Assembly: GCF_001984155.1 (NCBI RefSeq) | Contig: NZ_MTQO01000046.1 | Span: 1 to 64,000 of the forward strand | Direction: 5' to 3' | DNA from: Actinosynnema sp. ALI-1.44 | GTDB taxonomy: Bacteria; Actinomycetota; Actinomycetes; Mycobacteriales; Pseudonocardiaceae | Length of the DNA: 64,000 nucleotides | Shown here: positions 1-13,534 of the stretch, piece after piece | Layout of the letters: every line of letters starts with the position of its first letter | Position numbering within the stretch: the stretch's first letter is position 1 | The notes under the pieces: model-generated | Seen by the model: only the letters and a program-made list of their open reading frames with translations | Told to the model about the DNA's origin: nothing | Databases searched by the model: none | Made by a program: the position numbers and the translations under genes

Positions 1-94
1 AACGGGATCCCAGCGCAGTCGGTCAGCACGTGGATCTTCGATCCGGTCTTGCCGCGGTCGACTGGGTTCGTCCCGGTCATAGGTCCCCTTTTTT
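1..94 (-). CDS. IS5 family transposase, OrfB part (partial)
   Basis: In the -1 frame after the A6 run the complement strand reads GTNPVDRGKTGSKIH followed by VLTDCAGIP, then leaves the window. This is the conserved start of the DDE domain in IS5 transposases (PVDRGK.GSK.H.L.D..G.P). It is truncated by the window edge. The expression route through frameshifting is inferred from the slippery run. Confidence 0.75.
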
Positions 95-448
95 GGCCCT
101 GACCGATGCTCCGTCCAGGACCGCCCGTGACCAGTCGATCAGGCCCTGGCTGCCCAACTCGTCCAGCACCGCGCGGTGCAACCGACGCCACAAACCGGCT
201 TTGGTCCACTCGGTGAACCGACGATGTGCCGTGGGCACGGTGACCCCGAACGACAACGGCAACAGCCGCCAGGCGCAACCACTGGTCAACACGAACACGA
301 TCGCGGTGAACACCGCACGATCATCCACCGGCGCGGTCCCGCCGCCCTGCGGACGTACACCAAACCCTGGAATCAACGGCCGCGCCAACGCCCACAACTC
401 ATCCGGCACCAACCGCCGCGACAGATCATCCACCACCTGAATGATCAT
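77..448 (-). CDS. IS5 family transposase, OrfA part
   Basis: This 123-residue reading frame starts at ATG 448 and stops at 77-79. It has the N-terminal IS5/DUF4096 pattern: a segment reading RRLVPDELWALARPLIPG, then GCAWRLLP and HRRFTEW. It ends AKKGDL directly after a run of six A (complement of 89-94). A -1 slip on that run continues into the OrfB frame, so the full transposase is probably a frameshift fusion, as known for several IS5 subgroups. The DDE catalytic residues are beyond the window. Confidence 0.85.
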   Translation of the reverse strand: MIIQVVDDLSRRLVPDELWALARPLIPGFGVRPQGGGTAPVDDRAVFTAIVFVLTSGCAWRLLPLSFGVTVPTAHRRFTEWTKAGLWRRLHRAVLDELGSQGLIDWSRAVLDGASVRAKKGDL

Positions 449-480
449 GACACACCATGATGAACCACGTGAGACACCCT

Positions 481-875
481 CTTGACACATCACGAGATCA
501 GCTTCGTGAAAGCGCGTAGCCTTGCCAGTGCCAGAGGCCCGGGACAAGCCTGCCGCGCGCGAACGGGTGAGCGTGCCGCAGGAGCGACGTCGTCGACGTA
601 CTCCGCGTCCACGATCGGATGGCACACAGCCGGTGACCGCACCGGCAGCGGTCAGGATCGTCGGCGGCCGTGCCGGTCCAGGCGTAGCTCGACCGGGCGA
701 GGGCGTGGTGCAGGAACTCTCGCCATATCCGCTGTCGCGGCCGCTGGCTTCCAGGCCGAAATGAGCGGTGCCCGCCGAGGTGTCGACGAGCTGCGTGACC
801 GGTGAGCCCGACCGCCGCGGCGGTGTATCGGCGGCCTCAGCTCCCACACTGAGCGCGTCGGCTGAATCTGCGGAT
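481..875. other. Gene-free stretch between IS end and MFS gene
   Basis: About 395 bases lie between the IS and the end of the MFS exporter gene. Open frames exist on both strands, but none has a recognisable domain, a good ribosome-binding site or a convincing start. It may be decayed DNA trapped between the IS and the operon. No clear hairpin terminator was seen after the MFS stop. Confidence 0.5.
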
Positions 876-2135
876 TCAGTCCGCAGCCGAGTCGATGATA
901 CGGACGGATGGTAGCAGTGCCACGGCAACGCTGACGGCGATCGCCAGTCCCGCGAGCAGTGCCAGTCCGCCTGCAACGCCAAGGCCCGCCGCGAGTGGCG
1001 CCGCGAGAATCTCACCAGCCGCGATTCCCCCGAGCGACGCGAGCGCCGAGTAAGACCCAACCCGTCCGATCCGGTCGCTGGGCACCTTCCGCTGCAGGGT
1101 GACGCTTTGGACAGATGCCGCGACCTGGCCGATGACGCCGGCGACCAGCATGGCCATCGACATGGGCATGAGCAGCCCTGCTGTCGGCGGCTGGTTCGCT
1201 GCGCCGAACGCGAGCACACCGAGCGGAGCCGCCAGCGAACACCCCATAGCCGCCACGGCGGTGGACAGGCGGACTCGGTCCTTCATCAGTGTGAAGACCA
1301 TGATCCCGGTGATACTGCCCGCGATCTGGAAAGCGTTGGCCAGCCCCAGGCCCGCGCGTCCGAAGGTGTCGTCGGCAACGATCAAGGCCAGGACTTGGAT
1401 CCCGCAGGCGAAACACGACATGTAGACCCACGTCACGAGCACGCAACCCGCGATCCACCGTGACGCGAGTACGTGAGTGAGTCCTTCCCTCAAAGAACGC
1501 CACATCCCGCTGCTGCTGTCCGTGGTGGTCGGAGGTTCGGGCAAGCACGCGTACATGATCCCGGCGAACAGAAACGTTCCTGCGTCGATCATCAGCGTCG
1601 TCGCCGGCCCGAAAGTCGCGATCAGCACGCCGCCGATACCCGTTCCGGTGAGCAATGCCATATCCATGCCGAACCTCGCGAAAGCGCCCGCGTCACGCAA
1701 CTGCTGATCAGGGACGACAAGGCGGAGCAACGCGTCGCTGGCAGGTCCGGCCAACGCCGCTGAGGATCCGTTGACGACCGACAACGCGAGCAGCAACGGC
1801 AGAGTCGCGTGACCGGACAGGAAGACCCACGCGCACACGAACTGGCTGACCGCTGACACGAAAGCCGACCACATCATGACGCGTCTGCGGATCGACCTGT
1901 CCGCGAGTGCTCCGCCGAATAGCACGAGCAGTAGGTTCGGCACGGAACGCGCCACGATCACTGCACTGAGGCTCGCTACTCCGCCAATCGCGTCCAGCAC
2001 CGCGAAACCGAGGGCCATGGGAGCCATCGCGTTGCCGAACCACGAAAGCGTACGCGCAGACCACAGAACCATGAACGGGCGATTCGTGAATAATGGCCGC
2101 CATCTGCGCGCGAAGGTGGAGCCGAGGGCAGTCAT
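876..2135 (-). CDS. MFS exporter of the biosynthetic operon
   Basis: A 419-residue major facilitator with about 12 hydrophobic segments. The N-terminal half reads NRPFMVLWSARTLSWFGNAM and the cytoplasmic loop carries LADRSIRRRVMMWS, the usual MFS D-R-x-x-R motif. It resembles the EntS/antibiotic-efflux branch. Its ATG overlaps the stop of the carbamoyltransferase gene by four bases (ATGA at 2132-2135), so the two are translationally coupled. By position it is the likely exporter and self-resistance protein for whatever the upstream genes make. The substrate is unknown. Confidence 0.85.
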   Translation of the reverse strand: MTALGSTFARRWRPLFTNRPFMVLWSARTLSWFGNAMAPMALGFAVLDAIGGVASLSAVIVARSVPNLLLVLFGGALADRSIRRRVMMWSAFVSAVSQFVCAWVFLSGHATLPLLLALSVVNGSSAALAGPASDALLRLVVPDQQLRDAGAFARFGMDMALLTGTGIGGVLIATFGPATTLMIDAGTFLFAGIMYACLPEPPTTTDSSSGMWRSLREGLTHVLASRWIAGCVLVTWVYMSCFACGIQVLALIVADDTFGRAGLGLANAFQIAGSITGIMVFTLMKDRVRLSTAVAAMGCSLAAPLGVLAFGAANQPPTAGLLMPMSMAMLVAGVIGQVAASVQSVTLQRKVPSDRIGRVGSYSALASLGGIAAGEILAAPLAAGLGVAGGLALLAGLAIAVSVAVALLPSVRIIDSAAD

Positions 2136-3784
2136 CCGAAGGCGTGGTTAGGCTGGACTTGGTACGGCCGCACTTCTCGTGCCGAGGACCGGTGGGTAAC
2201 CAGTGCGTCACCAAGCACCATGAAGTCCAACGACTGGCGGCTGAAGCAGTTCAGGGCGTCCGCAGCGGAGTTCACGATCGGTTCGCCCGGTCCGTTGAAG
2301 GAGGTGTTGATGAGGATCGGGGGCAGCCCGCCGGCCTCGAGCTCTGCGAGGATGCCCGCGAGAGCCGGGGCCAGCGATTTGTCGACGACTTGCGGCCGGG
2401 TGGAGCCGTCCATGTGAGTGGCGGCGGGCAGGAGTTCGCGTCCGAGCCCGGATGTCGCGGTATTACCGACCATGTAGCGTTCGCGGGCTGGTTGACGTGC
2501 CCAGAGCCTATCCGCGTAGTGCGGCAACGCAGCAGGTGCGAGAGGGCGCCATGGCTCACGCCCTTTGAGCGAGTTCACTACCTTCGCCATCTCGGTCGGT
2601 CTCGGCAGCGCGATGATGGACCTGTTCCCGAGGGCTCGGGGCCCCACCTCCGCGCGTCCGGTTGCCAGCGCGCCGATTCCCCCGGCCAGCAGCAGTTGCG
2701 CCACGTCCGGCGGTGTGAAGTCGCTGATGACCAGGTTCCTGCTGGCCAACTCGGCGGAGGAGGGCACCGGCCCTGGTTCGGGGCCGAGGTAAGGGGAGTG
2801 TTCAACCCTGCCATGCGCTGGTGGCGTCACGATCCAGGCCGCACCGAGCGCGACTCCGGCGTCGTGCGGCCACGGCGGGATGAACACTGGCTCCGGCAAC
2901 CGACCGTTGGCCACCGAGTTGAGCGCCACGCCGCCGGCGACGCACAGGTTCTGCTCACCTGAGAGGCACACGGCGTCTGTGTACAGCTGGCGATACACCT
3001 CTTCCACCGTGCGCTGCGCGGACGCGGCCAGCATCGTCGCAATCTGGTCGTCGCACAGTTGATCGCGATCCTTTGTGATGGAGGTGAACGTGCGCCCGAA
3101 GTACTCCTCCCACCGGTGAAGAAGCTCCACATAGGCCATGTTGTCCTGCAGGGCGGCAAGTGGACGGCTGGTACCGGGGAGCAGGTCACCGAGCGGGAAC
3201 ACCTCGCTGTGCCTGCCCGGCGAATACGGGGCCAGCCCCATGGTCTTCCCGCACTCCAGCGTGCTGAAACCAAGAGTGGTCGTGGCTGCCTCGTACATCG
3301 CGCCAATCGAGTAGCTCGTCGGCCAGGACCGGAGAAGGTGCGGGCCGTGCTGCTGCCTGTCCATGCGGAAAATCGAGATGGACTGACGTTCTCCGCTGCC
3401 GTCGACCACAAGCACGCCCGCACTGTCGAACCCCGACGCGTAGAAGGCCGACGCCGCGTGCGCGACGTGGTGTTGCACGAACTCCACCGGGAGAGGGCTG
3501 GTTGCCGCGTCGTCGCCGAACAGCGCGCACAACAGCTCACGGCGGGTGTTGTCGGTCCAGTGGACTACGGCCGGGATGTCCCAGCCGACCGTCAGGACAT
3601 CCAGATCTCGCCAGTGTATTCCCGCGAGGTCGAGGCAATAACGGGCCGCGTTCACCGGGTAGCTGTTCCTGGCGTGCTTTTGCCTGGTGAACCGCTCCTC
3701 CTCGGCCATTGCCAGTACCTGTCCGTCCATGACCAGTGCCGCGCAGGGGTCGTGCCATTTCCAGTTGATGCCAAGGGTGAACAC
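2132..3784 (-). CDS. NodU/CmcH-type O-carbamoyltransferase
   Basis: About 550 residues. The family transfers a carbamoyl group from carbamoyl phosphate, via a carbamoyl-adenylate, to a hydroxyl of a natural product or sugar. Visible features are the N-terminal start FTLGINWKWHDPCAAL, the metal/ATP-site histidines in VQHHVAHAASAFY, the VVDGSGE phosphate motif, and the C-terminal domain with EVGPRALGNRSI, REPWRPLAPA and INTSFNGPGEP. I place the start at GTG 3784, preceded by GGGGAG at five bases; longer frames upstream would run into the mini-gene. It follows the mini-gene by 109 bases and overlaps the MFS gene. The acceptor is not known; a sugar added by the neighbouring glycosyltransferase or the peptide itself are candidates. 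Confidence 0.9.
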   Translation of the reverse strand: MFTLGINWKWHDPCAALVMDGQVLAMAEEERFTRQKHARNSYPVNAARYCLDLAGIHWRDLDVLTVGWDIPAVVHWTDNTRRELLCALFGDDAATSPLPVEFVQHHVAHAASAFYASGFDSAGVLVVDGSGERQSISIFRMDRQQHGPHLLRSWPTSYSIGAMYEAATTTLGFSTLECGKTMGLAPYSPGRHSEVFPLGDLLPGTSRPLAALQDNMAYVELLHRWEEYFGRTFTSITKDRDQLCDDQIATMLAASAQRTVEEVYRQLYTDAVCLSGEQNLCVAGGVALNSVANGRLPEPVFIPPWPHDAGVALGAAWIVTPPAHGRVEHSPYLGPEPGPVPSSAELASRNLVISDFTPPDVAQLLLAGGIGALATGRAEVGPRALGNRSIIALPRPTEMAKVVNSLKGREPWRPLAPAALPHYADRLWARQPARERYMVGNTATSGLGRELLPAATHMDGSTRPQVVDKSLAPALAGILAELEAGGLPPILINTSFNGPGEPIVNSAADALNCFSRQSLDFMVLGDALVTHRSSAREVRPYQVQPNHAFG

Positions 3785-3893
3785 GGTGTCTCCCCGAGGT
3801 TTCGTGCGGATGATGCCGGGTTGGCGTGTGTGGAGGAACGGCGTGGTGGAGGAACAGTCCTGTCGCTCCACCACGCTGCGGACATCGCGTTAA

Positions 3894-3971
3894 CTAGTGC
3901 GCGCAGGTCCACGTGTAGCGTCCGCCCATGCGGAGCGTGCGGCGGATCTTCCTCAGTACGGTTCTTGCCAT
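3894..3971 (-). CDS. 25-residue peptide gene, candidate RiPP precursor
   Basis: ATG at 3971, stop TAG at 3894-3896. The SD sequence GGAGGTGA ends seven bases before the ATG and is nearly a full complement of the 16S tail, stronger than that of any neighbour. The peptide has a strongly basic N-terminal part (Arg/Lys at 3, 7, 8, 10, 11 and 14), then MGG at 15-17, then the C-terminal octapeptide RYTWTCAH with Tyr19, Trp21, Cys23 and His25. It lies 36 bases after the glycosyltransferase stop and before the carbamoyltransferase, in an operon led by a P450. Known P450-RiPP precursors (biarylitides, atropopeptides) are also tiny and end in aromatic residues. No homologue is recognised, and the alternative is a short translated leader for the downstream gene. 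Confidence 0.55.
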   Translation of the reverse strand: MARTVLRKIRRTLRMGGRYTWTCAH

Positions 3972-3990
3972 TGCAGGTTCACCTCCCCTC
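3972..3990 (-). promoter_or_regulatory. Near-perfect Shine-Dalgarno of the mini-gene
   Basis: On the minus strand GAGGGGAGGTGA is followed by seven bases and the ATG at 3971. It matches eight consecutive anti-SD positions (GGAGGTGA). This is the main evidence that the short frame is translated. Confidence 0.7.
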
Positions 3991-4007
3991 GGGAGCCGTC
4001 GGTGGAT

Positions 4008-5063
4008 TCACCTGACGAGACCGATCGCCAGTGCGGCGATCTTGCTGGGATCGGCCCAGGAAAGGCCGAGGTCGTTGACGTCGCGAAGGTCGTTCGAAGC
4101 GGCTACGTCGTCGGCGAATGCGCGATCGACGTCGTCGTCGACGCATCTGTGCACTGCCACGTTCAAGCCCGCGAGGTAGTTCATTCGCGCGTGTGCCAGC
4201 CAGTCCGCCCGCGATGTGTAGGCGATGGTCGGGGTTCCGGCGCGCAACGATTCCAGCGCCACCGTCCCGGCGCAGGCGAGAACGAGGTCGGCGGCCTTTG
4301 CCAGCAGACGCGTGTGGTTGGTGAAGAGGATCCACTTCACCTCACCGGCTGAGGTGGCGTCAGACCAATTGGCTGGCTTCTCACCAACTACGACGAGGAG
4401 CGAGTCGGAGCGGGATCCGGTCCGCCAGTGATCGACCGCCTCCTGGAGCATCCGCAAGCGGATCGCGCCCTTGCTTGTGTGCGGTGATCCGTGAAGCAGG
4501 ACTGTGATCGTCGCGTCGGCAGGCAGGCCGAGTGCGGCTCGTGCCTGGAGCCGCGTGCAGGTCTCGACCGCGACCAACGGACCGAGGAAGTCGACATGCG
4601 GCGCGATCTCGGGCGGTGTCGGATGCAACGAGTACCAGTCCGGGACCGCGAAACGCATCTGCGACTGTCCGATCGCACCGCGGATGAAGCGGAAGTAACG
4701 GGATGTGGCGAAGGTGCAGGCCATGAACAGGCAGGGCAGTTCCATCTCGACGCAGAGCGCGGGTACGTAGAACAGCTCGTCGACGATGACAAGATCGATG
4801 CTGTCGGCGCGCCGGGCCAGCATGCGGGCGACCTTGCGGCGCGTCGACCACGAATGGTCGTTGTCGTCTGTCCACTTCGCGTCGATGTGCCCTACGCCAG
4901 ACCTGCGGAGGTATTCGCCTCCGCTGCCACCAGTCACCAGTTCTGTTGTCGCGGGTGCCGTGGTTATGCCTCGCATCGACTCGAGGACGTGCGTCGCTCG
5001 AACTGCGTGGCCGTAACCGAACCCGCGACAAAGATACGCAACTCGATTCGCCAAGTCCTTCAC
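4008..5063 (-). CDS. UDP-sugar-type glycosyltransferase (GT-B)
   Basis: 351 residues. The start is GTG 5063, which overlaps the P450 stop as GTGA. The N-terminus reads YLCRGFGYGHAVRATHVLES, the Gly-rich acceptor-side loop of MurG/MJ1255-like GT-B enzymes. The C-terminal half has ITVLLHGSPHTSKG and the donor-binding stretch LLAKAADLVLACAGTVALES followed by GTPTIAY. It lacks a signal peptide, so it is cytoplasmic. Placed between the P450 and the mini-gene, it probably glycosylates the operon's product. Donor sugar and acceptor cannot be told from sequence. Confidence 0.82.
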   Translation of the reverse strand: MKDLANRVAYLCRGFGYGHAVRATHVLESMRGITTAPATTELVTGGSGGEYLRRSGVGHIDAKWTDDNDHSWSTRRKVARMLARRADSIDLVIVDELFYVPALCVEMELPCLFMACTFATSRYFRFIRGAIGQSQMRFAVPDWYSLHPTPPEIAPHVDFLGPLVAVETCTRLQARAALGLPADATITVLLHGSPHTSKGAIRLRMLQEAVDHWRTGSRSDSLLVVVGEKPANWSDATSAGEVKWILFTNHTRLLAKAADLVLACAGTVALESLRAGTPTIAYTSRADWLAHARMNYLAGLNVAVHRCVDDDVDRAFADDVAASNDLRDVNDLGLSWADPSKIAALAIGLVR

Positions 5064-6331
5064 CCCAGCTTGGTGATACCGGCCTCGAAATGCCGAGGGA
5101 CCAACAGGGTTCGCACGTCCGGCGTCGCGTCCAGTTCCACGGTCGTCAACCTGTGTGCACGCAGGAACACGATGAGCATCGTGACAATCTCGATCATCCC
5201 GAGGTGCGACCCGATGCACACGCGAGGGCCTGCTCCGAACGGGAGGAAGATGCCTTTGCGCATGCCGTTGGCCTCGAGCCAGCGCCGCGGCTCGAACGAG
5301 TCGGCCATGTCCCATTCTTTAGCGTCACGATGTATGCTGAACAGGATTATGTTGATCGTGGTTTCTGGTGCCACCGTCAAATCCGGCAGCCGGATTTCCG
5401 AACCGGCCACGCGGGCTATCAGCCAGGCGGGCGGGTACAACCGGAGCACTTCGTACACCATCGCGGTGATGATTGGCGCGTCCTCGAGGATGTTCGACGT
5501 GATCGGCGCGCCGATTGCTTCCTTTCTCGCCATGGCCGCGAATTCGTCGTCGCGCTCGAGCATCGCCAGCGACCACGAAAGCGCCGCGCCAGGTACTCCG
5601 AACGAGGCGAGCAAGCAGACTTGTACCGCGTCTACGACCTGCTTGCGGCTGGCACCCGTGCCGTTGGCTATCGCATCGAGCAGATTTTCGGACTCGGTCT
5701 TCCCGGAACCCTGGCGGTTGGTGACAATCTCGTCGACGCGGGCCCGCAGCGCACGGGATCGCCTGCGCTGCCTGCGTACTCGTGGCAGCGGCAGCCATCC
5801 TGGCAGAACCTGTGAACTGTTCATGATCGGCAGGTTGGCGTGCACGGATGTCCGGACCATCTCGGCGACCTGGGACCCGTGCCTGCCGAACGTGAGTTCG
5901 GCCATGACCTGCCCGGACGCCATTTTCAGCACTTCTGTCACGTCCACTCGACTGCCTTCGACGGTGCGCAGGTACGAGGCAAACGCTTCCTCGACCGCAG
6001 TGGCGTGCTCGGCCGCGCGGCGGCGTTTCATGTGCTGGAGCGCGTTGTGCCTGGCGGGCATCCAGTCACTCGTGTACTGCTTGGCGGCGTCCAGCGGGCA
6101 CCTGGCGGCATACAGGTCAGGGTTGACGAAGTTCGTCCGATTGGTGTCGGCGAGGATCTTCTTCGCACTCGGCCCGTCTGTGATGACGACTTCGTAGTCG
6201 TCCAGGCGAAAATTCTTGCCGTCGGCCTTCCGGCGTTTCTGGATGTAGCCGAGGCGGTCACGGTCGTATGCTTGAATTTCCTTGCGATATGCCAACAGTG
6301 CGCGGAGCTCGTCCCGAGCGCTTCGTAACAT
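5060..6331 (-). CDS. Cytochrome P450, unusual I-helix
   Basis: 423 residues, ATG 6331 after AGGAG at six bases. The heme loop FLPFGAGPRVCIG places the thiolate Cys at about 372. The K-helix ExxR is EVLR before LYPPAWLIAR, and the meander has FEPRRW. The I-helix, which normally carries A/G-G-x-D/E-T, reads LLASFGVPGAALSW, so the acid-alcohol pair used for proton delivery is replaced by V-P-G. This suggests chemistry other than simple hydroxylation, such as phenol or indole coupling, but that is inference. First gene of the operon; it needs a ferredoxin supplied from elsewhere, as none is nearby. Confidence 0.9.
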   Translation of the reverse strand: MLRSARDELRALLAYRKEIQAYDRDRLGYIQKRRKADGKNFRLDDYEVVITDGPSAKKILADTNRTNFVNPDLYAARCPLDAAKQYTSDWMPARHNALQHMKRRRAAEHATAVEEAFASYLRTVEGSRVDVTEVLKMASGQVMAELTFGRHGSQVAEMVRTSVHANLPIMNSSQVLPGWLPLPRVRRQRRRSRALRARVDEIVTNRQGSGKTESENLLDAIANGTGASRKQVVDAVQVCLLASFGVPGAALSWSLAMLERDDEFAAMARKEAIGAPITSNILEDAPIITAMVYEVLRLYPPAWLIARVAGSEIRLPDLTVAPETTINIILFSIHRDAKEWDMADSFEPRRWLEANGMRKGIFLPFGAGPRVCIGSHLGMIEIVTMLIVFLRAHRLTTVELDATPDVRTLLVPRHFEAGITKLG

Positions 6332-6920
6332 CGACCGCTCCTGTGAGTGCCGTTCGCGAGAATGTGCGGATATCGGACGCGTCAGGTCCGGTCACGGAAC
6401 AAAGCGACTGCTGCCGGCCGGTGAGCGCAGCCCGATCCTGACGAAAAATCTCGTGGCAACCATGCCAAGCGGGCGTTGACGGCGCAAGGACTTCGGGCGC
6501 GGTCGCTGTCCCGAGATGCACGGACCCGTGTCAAGCAGGCATTTCTCGCTGGCGTGGGACATGGCCTACCGATTCGGGGCGCCTGCGGCTTGGGGAAGTC
6601 GCTGGCTTTGCCCGGCACTGCGAGTCAGCTCGCGCGGCATCTCACGAGGCCAAAGATTGACGCGCGCCAAGTTATTCCGATCTTGGTCGGAAACCGGCAA
6701 ACACACGCGCTACGAGCGGCCCGAAGCAATCCAGTCGGTCAGGTTCCCTCGATACCGCGATCGATTAGTTCGCAAACTGGCCAGGGAGTCGTGCCGGGGC
6801 ACGTGCAAACGACTTCGAACATTCACAACTCTGGATGTGACAGTCAAAGCTTTGTGGCGCTAGCGTTTTAACGCTTTGTGGCGCATGCCCACGTTGGGTT
6901 CTGTGTTCGACGGAATGAGC
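6332..6920. other. 589-base gene-free region upstream of the P450 operon
   Basis: No gene could be supported on either strand. It should hold the promoter of the P450 operon; a TTGACA hexamer lies on the minus strand at 6529-6534 without a good -10 element. The right end carries a 12-bp direct repeat (see 6849-6884). Base composition is less GC-rich than in the flanking genes. Confidence 0.5.
6849..6884. repeat. 12-bp direct repeat flanking a small palindrome
   Basis: GCTTTGTGGCGC occurs at 6849-6860 and again at 6873-6884, 24 bases apart. Between them the arms AGCG and CGCT flank TTTTAA. It lies just after the stop of the HTH/glycosidase-like gene and upstream of the P450 operon. It could be a regulator site or part of a terminator. 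Confidence 0.5.
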
Positions 6921-8507
6921 TTAGGGCTGGCGGTGCATGATGAGCACTGGGGTTTCGGTGATGTGAACGGTGTCGCCAGGGTGTAGGGGTCTGCTGGTTC
7001 CGTCGAGGTGCCGTACTTCGTCGGCGTGTGGGCCAGCGGTGGTGGTCGCGGAGCCGCCGTGCGTCCAGCGGATCACCAGCGACCGGTGGTCTGCGGTGGT
7101 GAACTGACATTGCCACACGTTGCCCGGTAGGTTGATCGCCACGCCTTGACCGCAGGAGTGGCTCATGGTGTGCGACAGCCAGCGCTGCAGTTCCTCGACG
7201 GCGAGCGCGGCTTGAGTGGGCGGACCGCCGACTGCTTGGAGCGCGATCGGCAGTCGCTCGCCGCCGCCCCAGTTGTAGAAGTACGTGCGCGCGAGTCCGA
7301 AGTTGCTGCCGTAGAGCGCGACGAGGTAGAAGCGCGTCGCGTAGTCGACGGCGCGTTGCTGGTCGAGAGGTTCTTCCCGCACGTACTCATAGGTGACGCC
7401 GGTGTTCCACAGCGGTGGGTGCACACCGGCGTCATGCATCGCGTGGTCGACCTGCTGCAGCAGGTCGAGCATGGTCTCCGGGGGGTCAAGTACTTGTCGC
7501 TGATGCAGATTCAGGCCGGCGATGTCGCAATGGTCGTAACCTCGGAGCTCGGCGAACCGGCGCAGCATCCGCCGGCCTTCGTCAGTCCACAACCCGGTGA
7601 TTGAGGGACAGACCACGACAGCCTTGGGGTCCGTTGCCTTGATGACACGGCTGGCGCGACGCGTCATCTCGACCAGCGTCTCTGTCGAACCGGTGTAGTA
7701 GCGCGCGTCGTTGGCGTGCACCCACACCTCGTACGCCTCGATCCGGTCCCGATACCGAGACACGAGTGCGCGGACGAAGTCGTCCCAGACCGTGAGGTCG
7801 TCGGGTGGCGCGCTGCGTGATCCGTCGCTGTACGGGGCCTTGGGCCCGTGGGGTGCCGCCCATGCTGGTGTTCCGCCGAAGACGAGCGTCGCCGGAAGAC
7901 CGGCCTGCTGCGCCCCGGCCACCAGGCGATCCAGGACGGTCCATTCGTACGCACCCGGTTGCGGCTGCAGGCTGGCCCACCGGGTTCCGCTGTCCCAAAA
8001 CCGCACACTGCCGACCCGGAAGGCCGGCATCGAACCACTCCGTGAGGATGCCGTGACGCCGAACAACTTCGGGTCGACCGGAGTTTCTTTTTGCCAGGAG
8101 GGACCGTCGATGTGTTGCGGGACGCCAAGGTGCTGGGTGTACGGAACGCTGGCCGCTGCCACCGCCAAAGCTATGACAAGCAAAGCCGCAGCGGTTCTGA
8201 GAAGGCGCTGCGGACGTCTCTTTTTCCCTGAAACGGGTACCGGGTCCGCGACTGGCAGCGCCGTGTCCGGGTCGGTGGCCAGGCGCCACTGTCGCAGCAG
8301 CTCGATCAGTTCTTTATCTGTCGCCGAGCACGCTGTGGCGATTCTGACGACAGCGTCATAATCCGGCGGGACCGTTTTCCCGGTGCAGTATCGATGCAGA
8401 GTGGAACTGCTCATATGCGTTTTGCGGCCAAGATCGGAATAACTCAATCCGCTCCGGTTCTTCATCTCGGCGAGATGTCTCGCAAGCTCGCTGCCCGTGT
8501 CGGACAC
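6921..8507 (-). CDS. Membrane-anchored XRE-HTH protein with glycosidase-like outer domain
   Basis: 528 residues from GTG 8507; GGGGAGG stands nine bases upstream, whereas the ATG at 8513 would be only three bases from it. Residues 1-65 form an XRE helix-turn-helix (GLSYSDLGRKTHMSSSTLHRY). Residues 95-121 are a basic stop-transfer and single membrane helix. The remaining 400 residues resemble a GH39/GH5-type barrel, with GVTASSR, VRFWDSGTRWASLQP, the strand YEVW and a C-terminal beta part. At the usual acid/base position (VWNE) this protein reads VWVH, so the glutamate is lost. It may sense a sugar rather than cleave it. The gene points toward the P450 operon. Confidence 0.75.
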   Translation of the reverse strand: MSDTGSELARHLAEMKNRSGLSYSDLGRKTHMSSSTLHRYCTGKTVPPDYDAVVRIATACSATDKELIELLRQWRLATDPDTALPVADPVPVSGKKRRPQRLLRTAAALLVIALAVAAASVPYTQHLGVPQHIDGPSWQKETPVDPKLFGVTASSRSGSMPAFRVGSVRFWDSGTRWASLQPQPGAYEWTVLDRLVAGAQQAGLPATLVFGGTPAWAAPHGPKAPYSDGSRSAPPDDLTVWDDFVRALVSRYRDRIEAYEVWVHANDARYYTGSTETLVEMTRRASRVIKATDPKAVVVCPSITGLWTDEGRRMLRRFAELRGYDHCDIAGLNLHQRQVLDPPETMLDLLQQVDHAMHDAGVHPPLWNTGVTYEYVREEPLDQQRAVDYATRFYLVALYGSNFGLARTYFYNWGGGERLPIALQAVGGPPTQAALAVEELQRWLSHTMSHSCGQGVAINLPGNVWQCQFTTADHRSLVIRWTHGGSATTTAGPHADEVRHLDGTSRPLHPGDTVHITETPVLIMHRQP

Positions 8508-8784
8508 AACCATCGACCTCCCCAGTCGTTCGGTGCCGCGAGCCAGCATGACAGCAGGCGTCCCAAGCCCCTGTAAAATACCTGCTCAACACGGGTTTGT
8601 GCATGTCGGGACGGCGAACGGACCGACACCCCTTGCCACCCCCGTCATCCATTCGACATGGTTGTCCTGCCCCTCACGCCCTCAACTGTGCTTGCAGCAA
8701 TCCTGCAGCAAATCACACGATCGGCCGCACATCCTGGCGCTGGGTAGGCACACGTCCGTAACTGGACCGAATCAGGAAGGCACG

Positions 8785-9186
8785 ATGCACATGCGCACGA
8801 CCAAGACCGTCGTAGTCAGTGGGGTTGCCGCACTTATCGCTTTCAGTGCTGCGGGAACGGCCGCTAGTGCGGAACAAGCGAGTGACGTAGAAATCCAGCA
8901 CTACCCGTGTGGCAGCTCCCGTCCGCCGAACCGGGACACTCAGGGTTCCAATGGCGTATGGCCGAAAGCGATCAGGGACCTGGCCCCGCAGAGCGGCTCG
9001 GCATACTCGTGTTCCGATCTTGCCACCATCTACCACGGCGACCGGCTGGACTACTACTGCTGGACCGTGGGCTCCGACAATGCAATCTGGACGTACGTGT
9101 CCGCATTCGATCGGGGCACAGCAGGGTGGGTTCTCGACAACAAACTCTCCCCGACGAGTCAAGGTAGCGCGAACTGTCCAACCTGA
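8785..9186 (+). CDS. Small secreted protein of unknown function
   Basis: 133 residues. The ATG at 8785 (or 8791) follows AGGAAGG. A Sec signal peptide is clear: a basic start, then VVVSGVAALIAFSAAGTAAS with cleavage after ASA. The mature part is about 100 residues with four cysteines (two likely disulfides) and a Trp/Tyr-rich core including LDYYCWTVG and WTYVS, suggestive of a small beta-barrel of the SH3 kind. It is divergent from the HTH/glycosidase-like gene, sharing a 270-base spacer. No family is assigned with confidence. Confidence 0.75.
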   Translation: MHMRTTKTVVVSGVAALIAFSAAGTAASAEQASDVEIQHYPCGSSRPPNRDTQGSNGVWPKAIRDLAPQSGSAYSCSDLATIYHGDRLDYYCWTVGSDNAIWTYVSAFDRGTAGWVLDNKLSPTSQGSANCPT

Positions 9187-9495: not shown

Positions 9496-9900
9496 TCACG
9501 GCTGCATAAGACCGTGGGCTCGCCCCCTCGCAAAGAGATAGTCATTGAGACAGAGAAGGAGGGGCTGCCCATCAGTGCGCCGTTTGAGTGAGAACAGGGT
9601 TCTGAGACAGGTTTCGGCCCCGCCGATGCCTCTGTGGCTACCTCGGTGCGGTGTTCTCAACGTCACCCCGTGCCAGCCCCACCAGGGGTCAAAGAAGACC
9701 ATTACAGGTAGGCACCACACCCATGACCAGAACAGCACCGTGACAGCGAGATAGCACGGCACCGGCGGCGCCACGATCAGCACGCCGACCACCGGGTCGA
9801 ACAGCAGCCACAACAGCTCCCGCCACGTGGCGCGGTCACCGAGCAACCACTTGATCCGCTGGTACCGGACAATCCCCTTCGGCGATGCGGACAGGGTAGG
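9496..9900 (-). pseudogene. Decayed sensor-domain protein fragment
   Basis: On the minus strand residues read QRIKWLLGDRATWRELLWLL, followed by FDPVVGVLIVAPP and further hydrophobic stretches. This matches the membrane sensor domain (PF13796) that precedes histidine kinases in actinomycetes. After about 60 residues the match ends and the frame runs on into unrelated sequence; the upstream part changes frame. No kinase domain follows. It is best read as a remnant in an integrated island. Confidence 0.55.
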
Positions 9901-10135
9901 TGAAGGTAATCGACGCCGTTTCCCGTGGCTGGCGGCGGATGTTCACGGTCGCGGGCGGCACGTCGGGAACGGCCAGCGGGTTGTGTCCGGGGTTGCGCGG
10001 CGGCCTCTGCGCGATCTTGTCGGCGTAGTAGGCGCGGACACCGTCGCTGTGGTGCTCGACGCTCCAGATGAACGCCCGGCGGACCGTGGCGGTGAACGTC
10101 TGGCTGAGCAGGTCACGGGCCTCGGCGATGAGCAC
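9836..10135 (-). CDS. Hypothetical protein, start uncertain
   Basis: An open frame with plausible composition, reading through LLSQTFTATVRRAFIWSVEH, DGVRAYYADKIAQRPP and PPATVNIRRQ. Only GTG 10135 is a possible normal start, and no ribosome-binding site is visible; the frame stays open upstream to about 10294. It overlaps the sensor-domain remnant at its end. It may be the body of a broken gene rather than a functional one. No family recognised. Confidence 0.3.
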   Translation of the reverse strand: MLIAEARDLLSQTFTATVRRAFIWSVEHHSDGVRAYYADKIAQRPPRNPGHNPLAVPDVPPATVNIRRQPRETASITFTYPVRIAEGDCPVPADQVVAR

Positions 10136-10185
10136 GCACCGAATCGTATCGGCGAGGCGAACGGTGCCACCTCGGTGGCAGGGAG

Positions 10186-10413
10186 CTATCTGGGCGCGGT
10201 GGTGTCCAGGACACGTTCGACGGCGTCCAGTGGCCAGGGCCGTCCGCGTGTTGGTCCTGGTGGCGCGGCCCGTTCCTGCTCCGTGCAGATCCACACCACC
10301 ATGGTCTTCGCGCCCCGCTGGATGCCACTGATCGCGGTCCGCTCGATGACCTCACCGTCGGCAGTGCGCAGGGCAAGCCAGCGGCCCGGTTCGATACGGG
10401 GCTGCTCGGTCAT
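10186..10413 (-). CDS. Small hypothetical protein (75 aa)
   Basis: ATG at 10413, no strong ribosome-binding site. The sequence RWLALRTADGEVIERTAISG then TMVVWICTEQE suggests a small beta-rich protein. It is divergent from the endonuclease VII-like gene across 76 bases. It is one of several small cargo-type genes in the putative island. No family recognised. Confidence 0.5.
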   Translation of the reverse strand: MTEQPRIEPGRWLALRTADGEVIERTAISGIQRGAKTMVVWICTEQERAAPPGPTRGRPWPLDAVERVLDTTAPR

Positions 10414-10489
10414 CAGAGTTGATCTCGATTCCTTGTCGGGCTTGGGGTTTGGTCCATCAGAATATGTCAGACCCTTCTGTCATCGTGGA

Positions 10490-11260
10490 ATGCGGTGCGG
10501 TGTACCTGAGTTCAGCATCGTCGACGGGCGCGTGCAGACCGCGCCCGGAGTAGCGCTGGTCTGGCTGCCACGCGATGGACAGGTCATCGCGAAAATCCCC
10601 GCTCGAAAAGGCAATCGTCGATGGCTGCATGAGTCGGTCCGGATCCGTTCTCCGCATCTGGATAAGGACAGCGGCAAGTGGACTTTGCCACGCAACTGCC
10701 TGACCAAGCTGGTGACCGCGGCGATCGACCGGTACGGCTACATCGTGGTCTGCCGGGACATGTCCCGGCTCTCGAAGCGCACCAGGACGTGTCTGGAGGC
10801 AGCGGGATCAGACTGCGATTGCTCCTGCCTGGGCGCCTACCACGGCGCGGACTCCTTCGGCTGGTTCGAACGGGTTGGGGACGTGATGGTCGCCGATCTC
10901 GGCGAAGTCAAACGAACTGCCATTCTCTACAGCGCCAAGGCAAACAACACCGACCCCGTCATCTACGACGGCCAACTGAGCGGCCTGGACTACCGCGCCG
11001 ACCGCGCAGGCCGCCATGGGTGGCCCCTGGCGATCCAGTTCATGTGCGCGTGCTGCATGAGCGCGCGAGCTCGCGTGTGGGATCACTGCCACGCGCACGG
11101 GTTCGTCCGTGCACCGCTGTGCAACACCTGCAACACCCGCCACTGGCGCGGGTGGCAACCCCAGCACGGGCGCGCCACACCCAGCAGCAACCTCGACACC
11201 AGCTACTACGCCTGGTGCCCGTGGCACAACGACACAGAGGTAGAGCCGTGCAGCGCGTAA
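10490..11260 (+). CDS. Endonuclease VII-like (His-Me finger) protein
   Basis: 256 residues if started at ATG 10490. The frame is open upstream and the ribosome-binding site is weak, so the start is uncertain. The C-terminal 70 residues carry the recombination endonuclease VII pattern: a CxxC (CACC), then DHCHAHGFVRAPLCNTCN, which gives the HCH catalytic core and the second zinc CxxC. The N-terminal 150 residues are unassigned. Such single-domain HNH-like proteins are common on actinomycete integrative elements. Cleavage specificity is unknown; a role in mobility or in degrading foreign DNA is inference. Confidence 0.75.
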   Translation: MRCGVPEFSIVDGRVQTAPGVALVWLPRDGQVIAKIPARKGNRRWLHESVRIRSPHLDKDSGKWTLPRNCLTKLVTAAIDRYGYIVVCRDMSRLSKRTRTCLEAAGSDCDCSCLGAYHGADSFGWFERVGDVMVADLGEVKRTAILYSAKANNTDPVIYDGQLSGLDYRADRAGRHGWPLAIQFMCACCMSARARVWDHCHAHGFVRAPLCNTCNTRHWRGWQPQHGRATPSSNLDTSYYAWCPWHNDTEVEPCSA

Positions 11261-11682: not shown

Positions 11683-11726
11683 TCGTTTCCCGGTGTGGCC
11701 GGGTACCCGGCCACACCGGGAAACGA
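11683..11726. repeat. 44-bp perfect palindrome
   Basis: The two 22-base arms are exact reverse complements meeting at GGGT/ACCC (11701-11708), with no spacer. The right half reads ACCCGGCCACACCGGGAAAC and continues GA. It lies 12 bases upstream of the GTG of the 71-aa gene and downstream of the 98-aa gene. There is no U-run on either side. It could form a long cruciform or act as a dimer-binding, terminator or processing site. Confidence 0.9.
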
Positions 11727-11834: not shown

Positions 11835-12131
11835 TTAGTCGTGGTCTGCGTCGTCGGCGTCGTGAAGCACGACGTCGCCGTGTTGTTCCGAGTAGATCCA
11901 ACATCGGCGGGACCGCTGGTGGGCCCACGCGATCGAGTCGTCCCTGTTGCCGGTGAACTCGCCGAGTACGGAGGCCGGGCCTTGCCAGGTCGCCCGCCAG
12001 CTTCCATCACGCATCTTCATCACGACTGCTGAGTCTTGATGCTCAGGACTCGGGGGGCCAGGAGGCTGAGGCGGCTGCGCTCCGGACCTGGTGAGGTAGT
12101 CGCGATATCGCGGTGATGGAGTATCTGTCAA
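11835..12131 (-). CDS. Small hypothetical protein (98 aa) coupled to integrase
   Basis: The frame starts at TTG 12131, which overlaps the integrase stop as TTGA, indicating translational coupling. It has a Pro-rich N-terminus, then VVMKMRDGSWRATWQGP and IAWAHQRSRRCWIYS, and an Asp-rich end. The central part looks like a small beta-sheet domain. No family recognised. Position suggests it belongs to the integrated element. Confidence 0.5.
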   Translation of the reverse strand: MTDTPSPRYRDYLTRSGAQPPQPPGPPSPEHQDSAVVMKMRDGSWRATWQGPASVLGEFTGNRDDSIAWAHQRSRRCWIYSEQHGDVVLHDADDADHD

Positions 12132-13534
12132 CGACGCCAGCCTCCGCCGTCCGAGTTCGCAGGGACCTGACGTACGTCATAGTACCGGTAAATTTGTTTG
12201 TCGTCTGTCTGTGTACAGGTGCTCTTGACGTACAGGTACCAGTACCCGGGATAGCCCTCTGCTTCGAACGAGAATTGGTGGACCAGACTGTGATCCCACA
12301 TCGTGTTGTCGTAGGCTTTGTAGCCGTTCGGGCCCCAGGAGTGACTGGCGTTGGCGGGAATACTGCCGATGGGACCGTAGATACTCCACTTACCTTCTAT
12401 CGCGTCACCTTCCACACCTGGCGCGGAATTCAGCAGGTCTCCAGTGAACACGACATTCTTAGTCGCTCGCGTATTGACGTACCGCACCGGGTTGCTCACA
12501 CTCTGGGCGCCTTGTAGCTGAATGTCTGGCACGTAGGTGAGTGCGGCGAGGGCGGCGGCGATTTCGGCGAGGGTGGCGCGGACGTAGGTCGCGGTGGCGC
12601 CGGGCTCGGTGCCGCTGTCGGTGTGTCCGGCGAACGCGTGGGCGACGGCGTAGCCGAAGTTGCGTTCGACCCAGGTGAGGGTGGTGTGGCGGAGCCAGTG
12701 GGTGGAGATTTGTTGGATACGGACCCAGGGCAGGTGTTGGCCGATGCGCAGCCAGAGGTGGTCATAGCGGCGGCTGGTGATCGGGTGGCCGTTGCGGTAC
12801 CGCAGCAGCTGTCCGTTGTGAGGTGCGTGGCGCTCGTCGGCGTGGTGCACCAGGTAGGTCATGAGGGTGGGTGATACCGGTTGCCAGCGTACGGTTTCGC
12901 CCTTTTCGCGCAGGAAGATCAGGCACTGGTCCGGGTCGAGGTCTTGGGGTCGCAGGGCGAGGGCTCCGCCCCGGCGACACGCGGTCTCGGTGTGTAGCCG
13001 CAACAACAGCGTGTCCAGTGCGGGGTCGTTGCCCGTGGTGGCCGCTGCCGTGTTGATCTCGGCCAGGCGGGTGTCGGCGACCGCGCGGCGAGTGGAAGGA
13101 AGACGGCGTGGTTTGTCGACCTTGCGGGCTGGGTTGTCGGTCTTGGTGATGAGGTTGTCGTCTTCGGCGTGTCGGTAGACGCAGCGTAGGGCGGCGATGA
13201 GGTGTTCGGCGGCGCTGCGTCCGCCGCGGGAGTTGCGTCGGGCCACCACGTTGGCTTTGACGTCTTCGACCAGGGCGCGGATCTCGGAGGGGGTGGGTTC
13301 GTCCAGGCGGCGGTCGCCCCACCGGTCGGTGATGCGGTTCCAGTAGGAGCCGTAAACCCGCCGGGTGCCTGCGGTGACCGCAGCGGACACGGTGGGGATG
13401 TATTCGGCGAACGTGGGCGCCGGTGGCCGGGTGTCGGGTTGGGTGAGCAGGTCCTGCGGGGACAGGCCCATCCCGGCCAAGACGAGCTTCGCGGCGTCCA
13501 GCGCGGCCGTCTTGTCGGGGTGCGAGGTCGTCAT
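12128..13534 (-). CDS. Tyrosine integrase with foreign C-terminal tail
   Basis: 468 residues, ATG 13534 overlapping the upstream gene as ATGA. Residues 1-345 are a phage-type integrase: SAM-like N-terminal domain, then the catalytic set in ETACRRGGALALRPQDLD (Arg I), STHWLRHTTLTW (HxxR), HAFAGHTD (His III) and ATYVRATLAEI (nucleophile Tyr). Integrases of this type normally end shortly after that Tyr helix. Here another 120 residues follow, with NVVFTGDLLNSAPG, ANASHSWGPNG and YPGYWYLYVKS, which look like the C-terminal part of a secreted beta-rich protein. The joint probably arose by recombination. The catalytic residues are intact. Confidence 0.85.
   Translation of the reverse strand: MTTSHPDKTAALDAAKLVLAGMGLSPQDLLTQPDTRPPAPTFAEYIPTVSAAVTAGTRRVYGSYWNRITDRWGDRRLDEPTPSEIRALVEDVKANVVARRNSRGGRSAAEHLIAALRCVYRHAEDDNLITKTDNPARKVDKPRRLPSTRRAVADTRLAEINTAAATTGNDPALDTLLLRLHTETACRRGGALALRPQDLDPDQCLIFLREKGETVRWQPVSPTLMTYLVHHADERHAPHNGQLLRYRNGHPITSRRYDHLWLRIGQHLPWVRIQQISTHWLRHTTLTWVERNFGYAVAHAFAGHTDSGTEPGATATYVRATLAEIAAALAALTYVPDIQLQGAQSVSNPVRYVNTRATKNVVFTGDLLNSAPGVEGDAIEGKWSIYGPIGSIPANASHSWGPNGYKAYDNTMWDHSLVHQFSFEAEGYPGYWYLYVKSTCTQTDDKQIYRYYDVRQVPANSDGGGWRR

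Follow-up and report, generated by a model that had tools for sequence, protein, structure and literature searches.

A five-gene operon and its small open reading frame

The stretch of DNA analysed here, called the window throughout, is the first 64 kb of its contig in the 11.7-Mb genome of Actinosynnema sp. ALI-1.44. On its minus strand, at 876-6331, it carries five co-directional genes in the order cytochrome P450 (P450), glycosyltransferase (GT), small open reading frame (ORF), carbamoyltransferase and major facilitator superfamily (MFS) exporter, which we consider as a candidate pathway for a ribosomally synthesised and post-translationally modified peptide (RiPP; Table 1). A previous reading of the letters without database searches, hereafter the sequence-only reading, had described five co-directional genes joined by GTGA and ATGA overlaps, and all five ORFs and both overlaps were recovered in our analysis. 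Between the GT stop and the start of the small ORF lie 36 nt, and another 109 nt separate the small ORF from the carbamoyltransferase, whose length of 550 aa depends on the GTG start that we chose. The same reading saw no core gene of a polyketide synthase (PKS), nonribosomal peptide synthetase (NRPS) or terpene pathway in the operon; Pfam analysis of the four large proteins likewise showed no PKS, NRPS or terpene cyclase domain, the remaining window being skimmed by eye.

Comparative evidence supports the small ORF as a RiPP precursor gene. Its predicted peptide can be divided into a putative leader, MARTVLRKIRRTLRMGG, and a core, (R)YTWTCAH, which is preceded by MGG. The Shine-Dalgarno (SD) sequence GGAGGTGA, when followed by 3-9 nt and then ATG or GTG, has its sole occurrence in 64 kb at the start of this ORF. 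In mononucleotide shuffles of the 223-nt intergenic stretch, an SD (GGAGG) with an ORF of 15-45 aa arose 89 times in 20,000, while the combination of SD, small ORF and family-like motif arose in 0 of 20,000. The GC content at third codon positions is 0.85 in the small ORF, compared to 0.78-0.81 in the neighbouring genes. We also built a profile from the peptides of 26 relatives, leaving out that of the window (25 of the 31 strict-motif peptides described below, five identical copies and that of locus L052 being omitted, together with that of L044). This profile ranked the window ORF first of 866 with an E-value of 0.0014, the next being 0.09, a modest match that is supportive but not overwhelming alone. 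From the profile rank and the SD and shuffle test, a chance ORF was rejected.

Table 1. Features of the operon, in window coordinates
Feature	Position	Strand	Description
Cytochrome P450	5060..6331	-	423 aa; Pfam p450 3.5e-40; predicted Tyr-Trp crosslinking enzyme
GT-B glycosyltransferase	4008..5063	-	351 aa; GTG start overlapping P450 stop (GTGA)
Shine-Dalgarno GGAGGTGA	3979..3986	-	7 nt before precursor ATG
RiPP precursor peptide, predicted	3894..3971	-	25 aa, MARTVLRKIRRTLRMGGRYTWTCAH
Hairpin	3841..3876	-	11 perfect pairs plus inner 4-pair extension
TobZ/NodU-type carbamoyltransferase	2132..3784	-	550 aa with chosen GTG start; Pfam, PDB TobZ, motifs
MFS exporter (MFS_3/MFS_1)	876..2135	-	419 aa; ATG overlapping carbamoyltransferase stop (ATGA); MFS_3 6.4e-23

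Peptides and P450s related to those of the window

Among 394 genomes of the class, a single P450 besides that of the window passed an E-value of 1e-40 (genome G427, 33% identity), and an ORF ending MGGRYHWATPTG lies directly upstream of it. Relatives of the window P450 proved to have, directly upstream, ORFs of 25-45 residues whose leader is basic and whose C-terminal part contains [MV]xGxY. The loci came from two sets. When a two-row P450 profile was run on 341 genomes of the family of G427 (matches in 111 at E <= 1e-45), the 32 best matches yielded 30 loci; when a six-row profile was run on 297 genomes of the family of the window (matches in 82 at 1e-60), the 26 best matches yielded 25, the window being one of them, hence 54 = 30 + 24 homologue loci. 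Loci were scored by a strict motif: a small ORF of 15-60 aa, preceded by an SD, that has [MV][GSAKP]G[RKMFLA]Y close to its C-terminus. Because this motif was composed after the peptides had been seen, the counts are descriptive. Such an ORF is present in 31 of the 54 loci (22/30 in the first set and 9/24 in the second), and in every one of the 31 it shares the strand of the P450 and sits upstream of it (30 by script, L052 by coordinates). The window's genome has 15 further P450 matches; the motif is absent from the seven loci checked among them and from the 241,232 bases of 13 GT or carbamoyltransferase loci, two of them overlapping. In the window itself, exactly one ORF, the 25-aa precursor, carries it, and a second precursor looked for upstream of the window P450 was not seen.

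The sequence-only reading had suggested that the tiny peptide could be the scaffold of a P450-RiPP, and both the 31 of 54 loci and the first rank in the profile search support it. That reading had also named what would speak against it, namely homologous operons lacking the small ORF or having a PKS or terpene core gene; with the small ORF present in 31 of 54 loci, the outcome is favourable for the P450 and the peptide.

The tails of these peptides fall into three groups. The Y-x-W group contains the window peptide (YTW) and four relatives, which read MGGRYHW (L023 and L025), MGGRYWW (L024) and MAGRYVW (L080). The second group has Y-x-Y-W (YTYW, YIYW, YPYW, YVYW and YFYW), and the third has Y-x-[IV]-Y followed by R[LV]R; L084 (AGAYTGPYAV) stands apart. 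Eleven loci of one actinomycete family (L034-L043 and L052) have, upstream of the P450, closely matching precursors that end in M[KP]GRYxxYR[LV]R. Around the presumed ring, the window core has Thr and Cys residues (TWTC) that would offer acceptors to the GT; after the Tyr, no Ser, Thr or Cys is found in L024, L025 and L080, and L023 has a Thr in its tail. Other aromatic-tailed small ORFs in L044 (TGAYPFYWG), L045 (SYAWV) and L087 (TAPYVYY) fail the strict motif and were scored as misses. The P450 of L045 (1498-2766, minus strand) has a different upstream small ORF, MAKQASPLSRVIHKIARTVGIKEHPASYAWV, with Y-x-W near its end. The [MV]xGxY precursors, a family which may already be in print, provide a handle for finding more clusters.

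In the window P450, the heme loop FGAGPRVCIG and the EVLR motif are intact, while GVPGA replaces the usual xxETT of the I-helix. An I-helix of the G[VI]P[GA] type is present in 11 of 16 P450s checked from loci with a precursor candidate (the others being GTMG in L034 and L038, GTPG in L084, MPTR in L044 and FETT in L087), and ETT is kept in 7/7 ordinary P450s. In a tree of 57 rows, a branch with support 90/91 places the window P450 together with all 30 strict-motif P450s in the tree, and the opposite side of this branch holds L044, L045 and L087, labelled as precursor-bearing in the tree, beside the ordinary P450s. L052 (no ORF with the heme pattern) and L086 (no P450 ORF found) are outside the tree. 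The P450s nearest to that of the window, from L023 and L080, both belong to the Y-x-W group. A P450 from the genus of the window (L083/L105, genome G093), also on the window's side, lies by eye beside oxygenase-like and aminotransferase-like genes. A P450 scan of viral contigs returned no relative, and a P450 scan of plasmids returned general P450s at 26-32% identity.

Tailoring enzymes and a proposed pathway

For the window GT, Pfam gives a sub-threshold match to LpxB only, and no sequence relative was found in the PDB at E-values up to 1. An AlphaFold2 model made with six family sequences (predicted local distance difference test score 79.5, predicted template modelling score 0.81) is of the GT-B type. 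Foldseek comparison of this model to the PDB returned antibiotic GT-B enzymes, the best being 6j31 (E 2.7e-11, template modelling score about 0.6), and the matches include the kitacinnamycin GT, CalG1, SnogD and GtfB. By this model, the predicted fold is the GT-B fold of natural-product glycosyltransferases. Relatives of the GT are rare: they were found in two of 296 other genomes of the window's family, none of the other 393 genomes of the class sample, and one plasmid. A two-pattern scan added five genome contigs, of which one is G278 again, and the distinct loci number seven. A YcaO gene lies within about 6 kb in five of the seven (L012 by annotation, L019-L022 by Pfam). The remaining two loci (G278 and G051) have a common gene context that includes an aminotransferase (by Pfam in L018) and, by eye, a dioxygenase-like gene. 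That members of this GT family often occur in RiPP clusters speaks for a peptide as acceptor. The YcaO clusters with a GT relative in L012 and L020-L022 possibly make glycosylated azole peptides; in L022, a gene without Pfam match precedes the GT, and a Cys-rich small ORF lies near the YcaO gene.

The carbamoyltransferase matches the Pfam families Carbam_trans_N (1.5e-36) and Carbam_trans_C (2.4e-47) above their cut-offs, and its closest solved structure is that of TobZ (PDB, 3.3e-78), an enzyme that carbamoylates an aminoglycoside sugar. TobZ/NodU-type enzymes have the motifs HHxxHA and GPRALGxRS, and the window protein has HHVAHA and GPRALGNRS; its domains and motifs assign it to this type. 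Relatives at an E-value of 1e-90 were found in 4/267 other genomes of the family (the best at 55% and 52% identity), and another relative, at 52%, is on a Streptomyces megaplasmid. By eye, the surroundings of such relatives are PKS/NRPS-like in L113 and L117, contain condensation-like and radical S-adenosylmethionine (SAM) genes in L115, and show nothing clear in L116. As read from the sequence, the gene content of the window operon, its coupling, the family membership of peptide and P450 and the catalytic motifs are clear.

Taken together, we propose, with a probability of roughly 0.72, that the operon encodes a P450-crosslinked RiPP which is glycosylated, carbamoylated on its sugar and exported. 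The basic leader (about residues 1-17) would dock on the P450, which would join the side chains of Tyr19 and Trp21 in Y-T-W into a three-residue biaryl ring with loss of 2 H; a Tyr-Trp staple of this kind is probable. The GT-B enzyme would then attach a sugar to the core through a hydroxyl or thiol group (Thr20, Thr22, Tyr19 or Cys23). The operon has no sugar genes, so the donor may be drawn from the common pool of nucleoside diphosphate sugars. The TobZ-type enzyme would carbamoylate the sugar with carbamoyl phosphate and adenosine triphosphate, a host protease would cleave off the leader, and the MFS protein would export the product. Leader removal by a host protease is believed for atropopeptides too (PMC11450843; here and below, statements on published systems cover the accessible parts of the papers). 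The sites of crosslinking, glycosylation and carbamoylation and the order of the steps are, like docking, leader removal and export, what we infer.

Several observations weigh against this proposal. We searched for the window GT, carbamoyltransferase and MFS by tblastn in the neighbourhoods of 29 P450 relatives (20 at an E-value of 1e-4 and 9 at 1e-3), covering about 8 kb per side where the contig allows; 25 of the 29 have strict-motif precursors, and six further strict-motif loci (L035, L040, L042, L052, L077 and L078) were covered by 1.5-kb flanks only. Homologues of the GT and of the carbamoyltransferase were found in 0 of the 29, so the conserved five-gene neighbourhood that the sequence-only reading had proposed to search for did not appear. 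The tailored form is therefore known only from the window, and the action of the GT and carbamoyltransferase on the peptide rests on the structure of the operon and the company of the GT family. The window MFS gave weak matches in two of the 29 neighbourhoods (L103 and L107), and in L016 and L056 MFS genes unlike it come after the P450. The window precursor is third in its operon, compared to directly upstream of the P450 in the 31 relatives. Its profile score is 14.2 bits after a composition correction of 10.6 bits, with a best-domain E-value of 0.028. The window P450 is divergent (best identity about 31-33%, a branch of 1.68, unusual composition), and the support of 90/91 for its placement is below the mark of 95. 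On its side of the tree, no precursor was found in L083 and L085, and L083 also carries the GVPG helix. Four of the five YcaO contexts of GT relatives (L012 and L020-L022) are one cluster type, which leaves two independent contexts. No leader peptidase is in the five-gene operon. Finally, the contig terminates at an insertion sequence (IS) element beside the operon. A sugar and a carbamate on the peptide can still be well inferred from this single genome, and are testable.

A P450-RiPP in which the carbamoyl group is on the peptide itself, at a Thr hydroxyl or the N-terminal amine, with the sugar elsewhere, appears unlikely. The closest solved relative of the enzyme is TobZ, the presence of GT and carbamoyltransferase in one operon suggests the sugar as acceptor, and the peptide has a single Lys, which lies in its leader; on the other side, the core has two Thr, and in one RiPP pathway the NodU-like carbamoyltransferase StdF acts on a peptide Lys (PMC13174530). 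Less probable again is that the P450 and the peptide make a RiPP while the GT, carbamoyltransferase and MFS come from a different pathway and act on a scaffold made elsewhere. The overlap of the GT and P450 genes, the position of the peptide between GT and carbamoyltransferase, the common direction with gaps below 110 nt and the RiPP company of the GT family all argue for one pathway. The contrary signs are the lack of GT and carbamoyltransferase in the 29 neighbourhoods, the PKS/NRPS-like, condensation-like and radical SAM surroundings of carbamoyltransferase homologues (41-55% identity), and the flanking of the operon by an IS transposase and an integrase-bearing stretch. A chance origin of the small ORF, with the operon acting on a non-peptide scaffold made elsewhere, such as a macrolide or a terpene, is highly improbable from the profile, motif and SD tests of the ORF, even though sets of P450, GT and carbamoyltransferase are common in polyketide clusters and the peptide is known here from its gene alone.

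The flanks of the operon contain further features. Part of an IS4/5-family transposase (DUF4096, window 77-448) adjoins the downstream side of the operon at the contig end. A repeat of this type may be the reason why the contig breaks there, and since the contig ends in this way, additional operon genes may lie beyond 876 on that side. Upstream, an odd DNA-binding/glycoside-hydrolase-like fusion (6921-8549) combines an N-terminal HTH_31 with a sub-threshold match to Glyco_hydro_42, and Endonuclease VII-like and phage-integrase genes are at 9827-11260 and 12128-13534. An inverted repeat with 20 perfect pairs and a 4-nt loop is at 11683-11726. The GC content is 62-67% in the first 18 kb and mostly 67-70% in the next stretch, and the first part of the window is perhaps a mobile region. 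Within the operon, the hairpin of Table 1 (-24.8 kcal/mol) begins 17 nt past the precursor stop and precedes the carbamoyltransferase gene. Ten sites in the window, this one included, have a perfect stem of at least 10 pairs and a loop of 3-17 nt, and the 116-nt region holding the hairpin is only mildly more stable than its shuffles (z -1.73). The hairpin could be an attenuator or an RNA-stabilising stem, and it possibly stands where a stem boosting precursor over enzyme mRNA would be expected. Rfam gave no match in window positions 1-9000.

Comparison with known systems

P450-crosslinked RiPPs are already known, and tailoring with a sugar and a carbamate was not met in the relatives examined. 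A word search of four P450-RiPP papers (PMC11450843, PMC12352619, PMC13417212 and PMC13383641) returned no glycosylated or carbamoylated product in the text accessible to it, and no P450-RiPP with both a glycosyltransferase and a carbamoyltransferase was found in the literature searched, which leaves subscription papers largely aside. Nam 2023, He 2023 and Liu 2024 (1057 P450-RiPP clusters, 11 categories) are covered here through a review (PMC12299652). Our specific prediction, a glyco-cyclophane RiPP class in which a P450 closes the Tyr-x-Trp ring and the attached sugar bears a tobramycin-style carbamate, would have one example so far, and we hold it to have a slightly better than even chance. 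If correct, it would join aminoglycoside-style decoration to very small RiPP scaffolds, offer for engineering a GT and a carbamoyltransferase that act on peptides, and imply that P450-RiPP clusters may conceal tailoring beyond precursor and P450.

Tyr-x-Trp rings made by P450s are established, as P450Blt makes them (PMC12352619, PMC13417212). Biarylitides, made by P450Blt or BytO from five-residue MxYxY/H precursors, some of them MKYLW or MKYIW, share with the window a P450 with a minimal precursor, a basic residue before the Tyr and an aromatic pair at i and i+2 (PMC13417212, PMC12352619). They differ by their pentapeptide precursor, compared to 25 residues with a long leader in the window, and by the GT and carbamoyltransferase of the window operon, both words being missing from the main text available for the biarylitide paper. 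We rejected membership in this class, as the window ORF has 25 aa, and from an inner M15 it would still have 11 residues instead of five.

Atropopeptides (the tryptorubin family) have in common with the window a small leader-plus-core precursor and one P450, and glycosyltransferases are named among the frequent tailoring genes of their clusters (PMC11450843). However, the definition of this family demands a KSLK-type leader motif that the window leader does not have, and a carbamoyl enzyme has 0 mentions in the accessible text of the same paper, in contrast to the carbamoyltransferase of the window operon. By the described motif, membership was rejected: MARTVLRKIRRTLRMGG contains none of KSLK, RSLK, ESLK, KSRK, KPLK and PSLK. 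By letter, the last six residues of the window peptide, TWTCAH, fit the atropopeptide core xWxxxx, and those of L023 (WATPTG), L024 (RYWWFH), L025 (RYHWAW) and L080 (RYVWYH) do not.

The cyptides rubrin and lapparbin and micitide 982, compared by description, also have a P450-made Tyr-Trp biaryl from small precursors (PMC12299652, PMC13383641), with Tyr-Trp links in lapparbin and micitide (PMC13383641). They differ in that "glycosyl" and "carbamoyl" are absent from the available text of PMC13383641, and neither is tied to RiPPs in the part of the review covered (PMC12299652). ApyO, the aminopyruvatide P450, is the best NCBIfam match for the window P450 at 100.7 bits, a score far under the cut-off of 525 bits. 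A point of likeness is that ApyO requires an Arg before a Y-L-Y motif (PMC13192836); a difference is that the window operon has neither a multinuclear non-heme iron-dependent oxidase nor a radical SAM partner.

For the carbamoyl transfer, the nearest parallels are the crocagin pathway and StdF, in which this reaction also takes place within a ribosomal peptide pathway (PMC13174530). The 2026 preprint describing StdF regards carbamoyl transferases as "exceedingly rare" in the making of RiPPs and places its own enzyme second after crocagin, the only other well-characterised case of RiPP carbamoylation (PMC13174530). StdF targets the amine of a peptide Lys (PMC13174530), whereas the carbamoyltransferase of the window is instead partnered with a GT and a P450.

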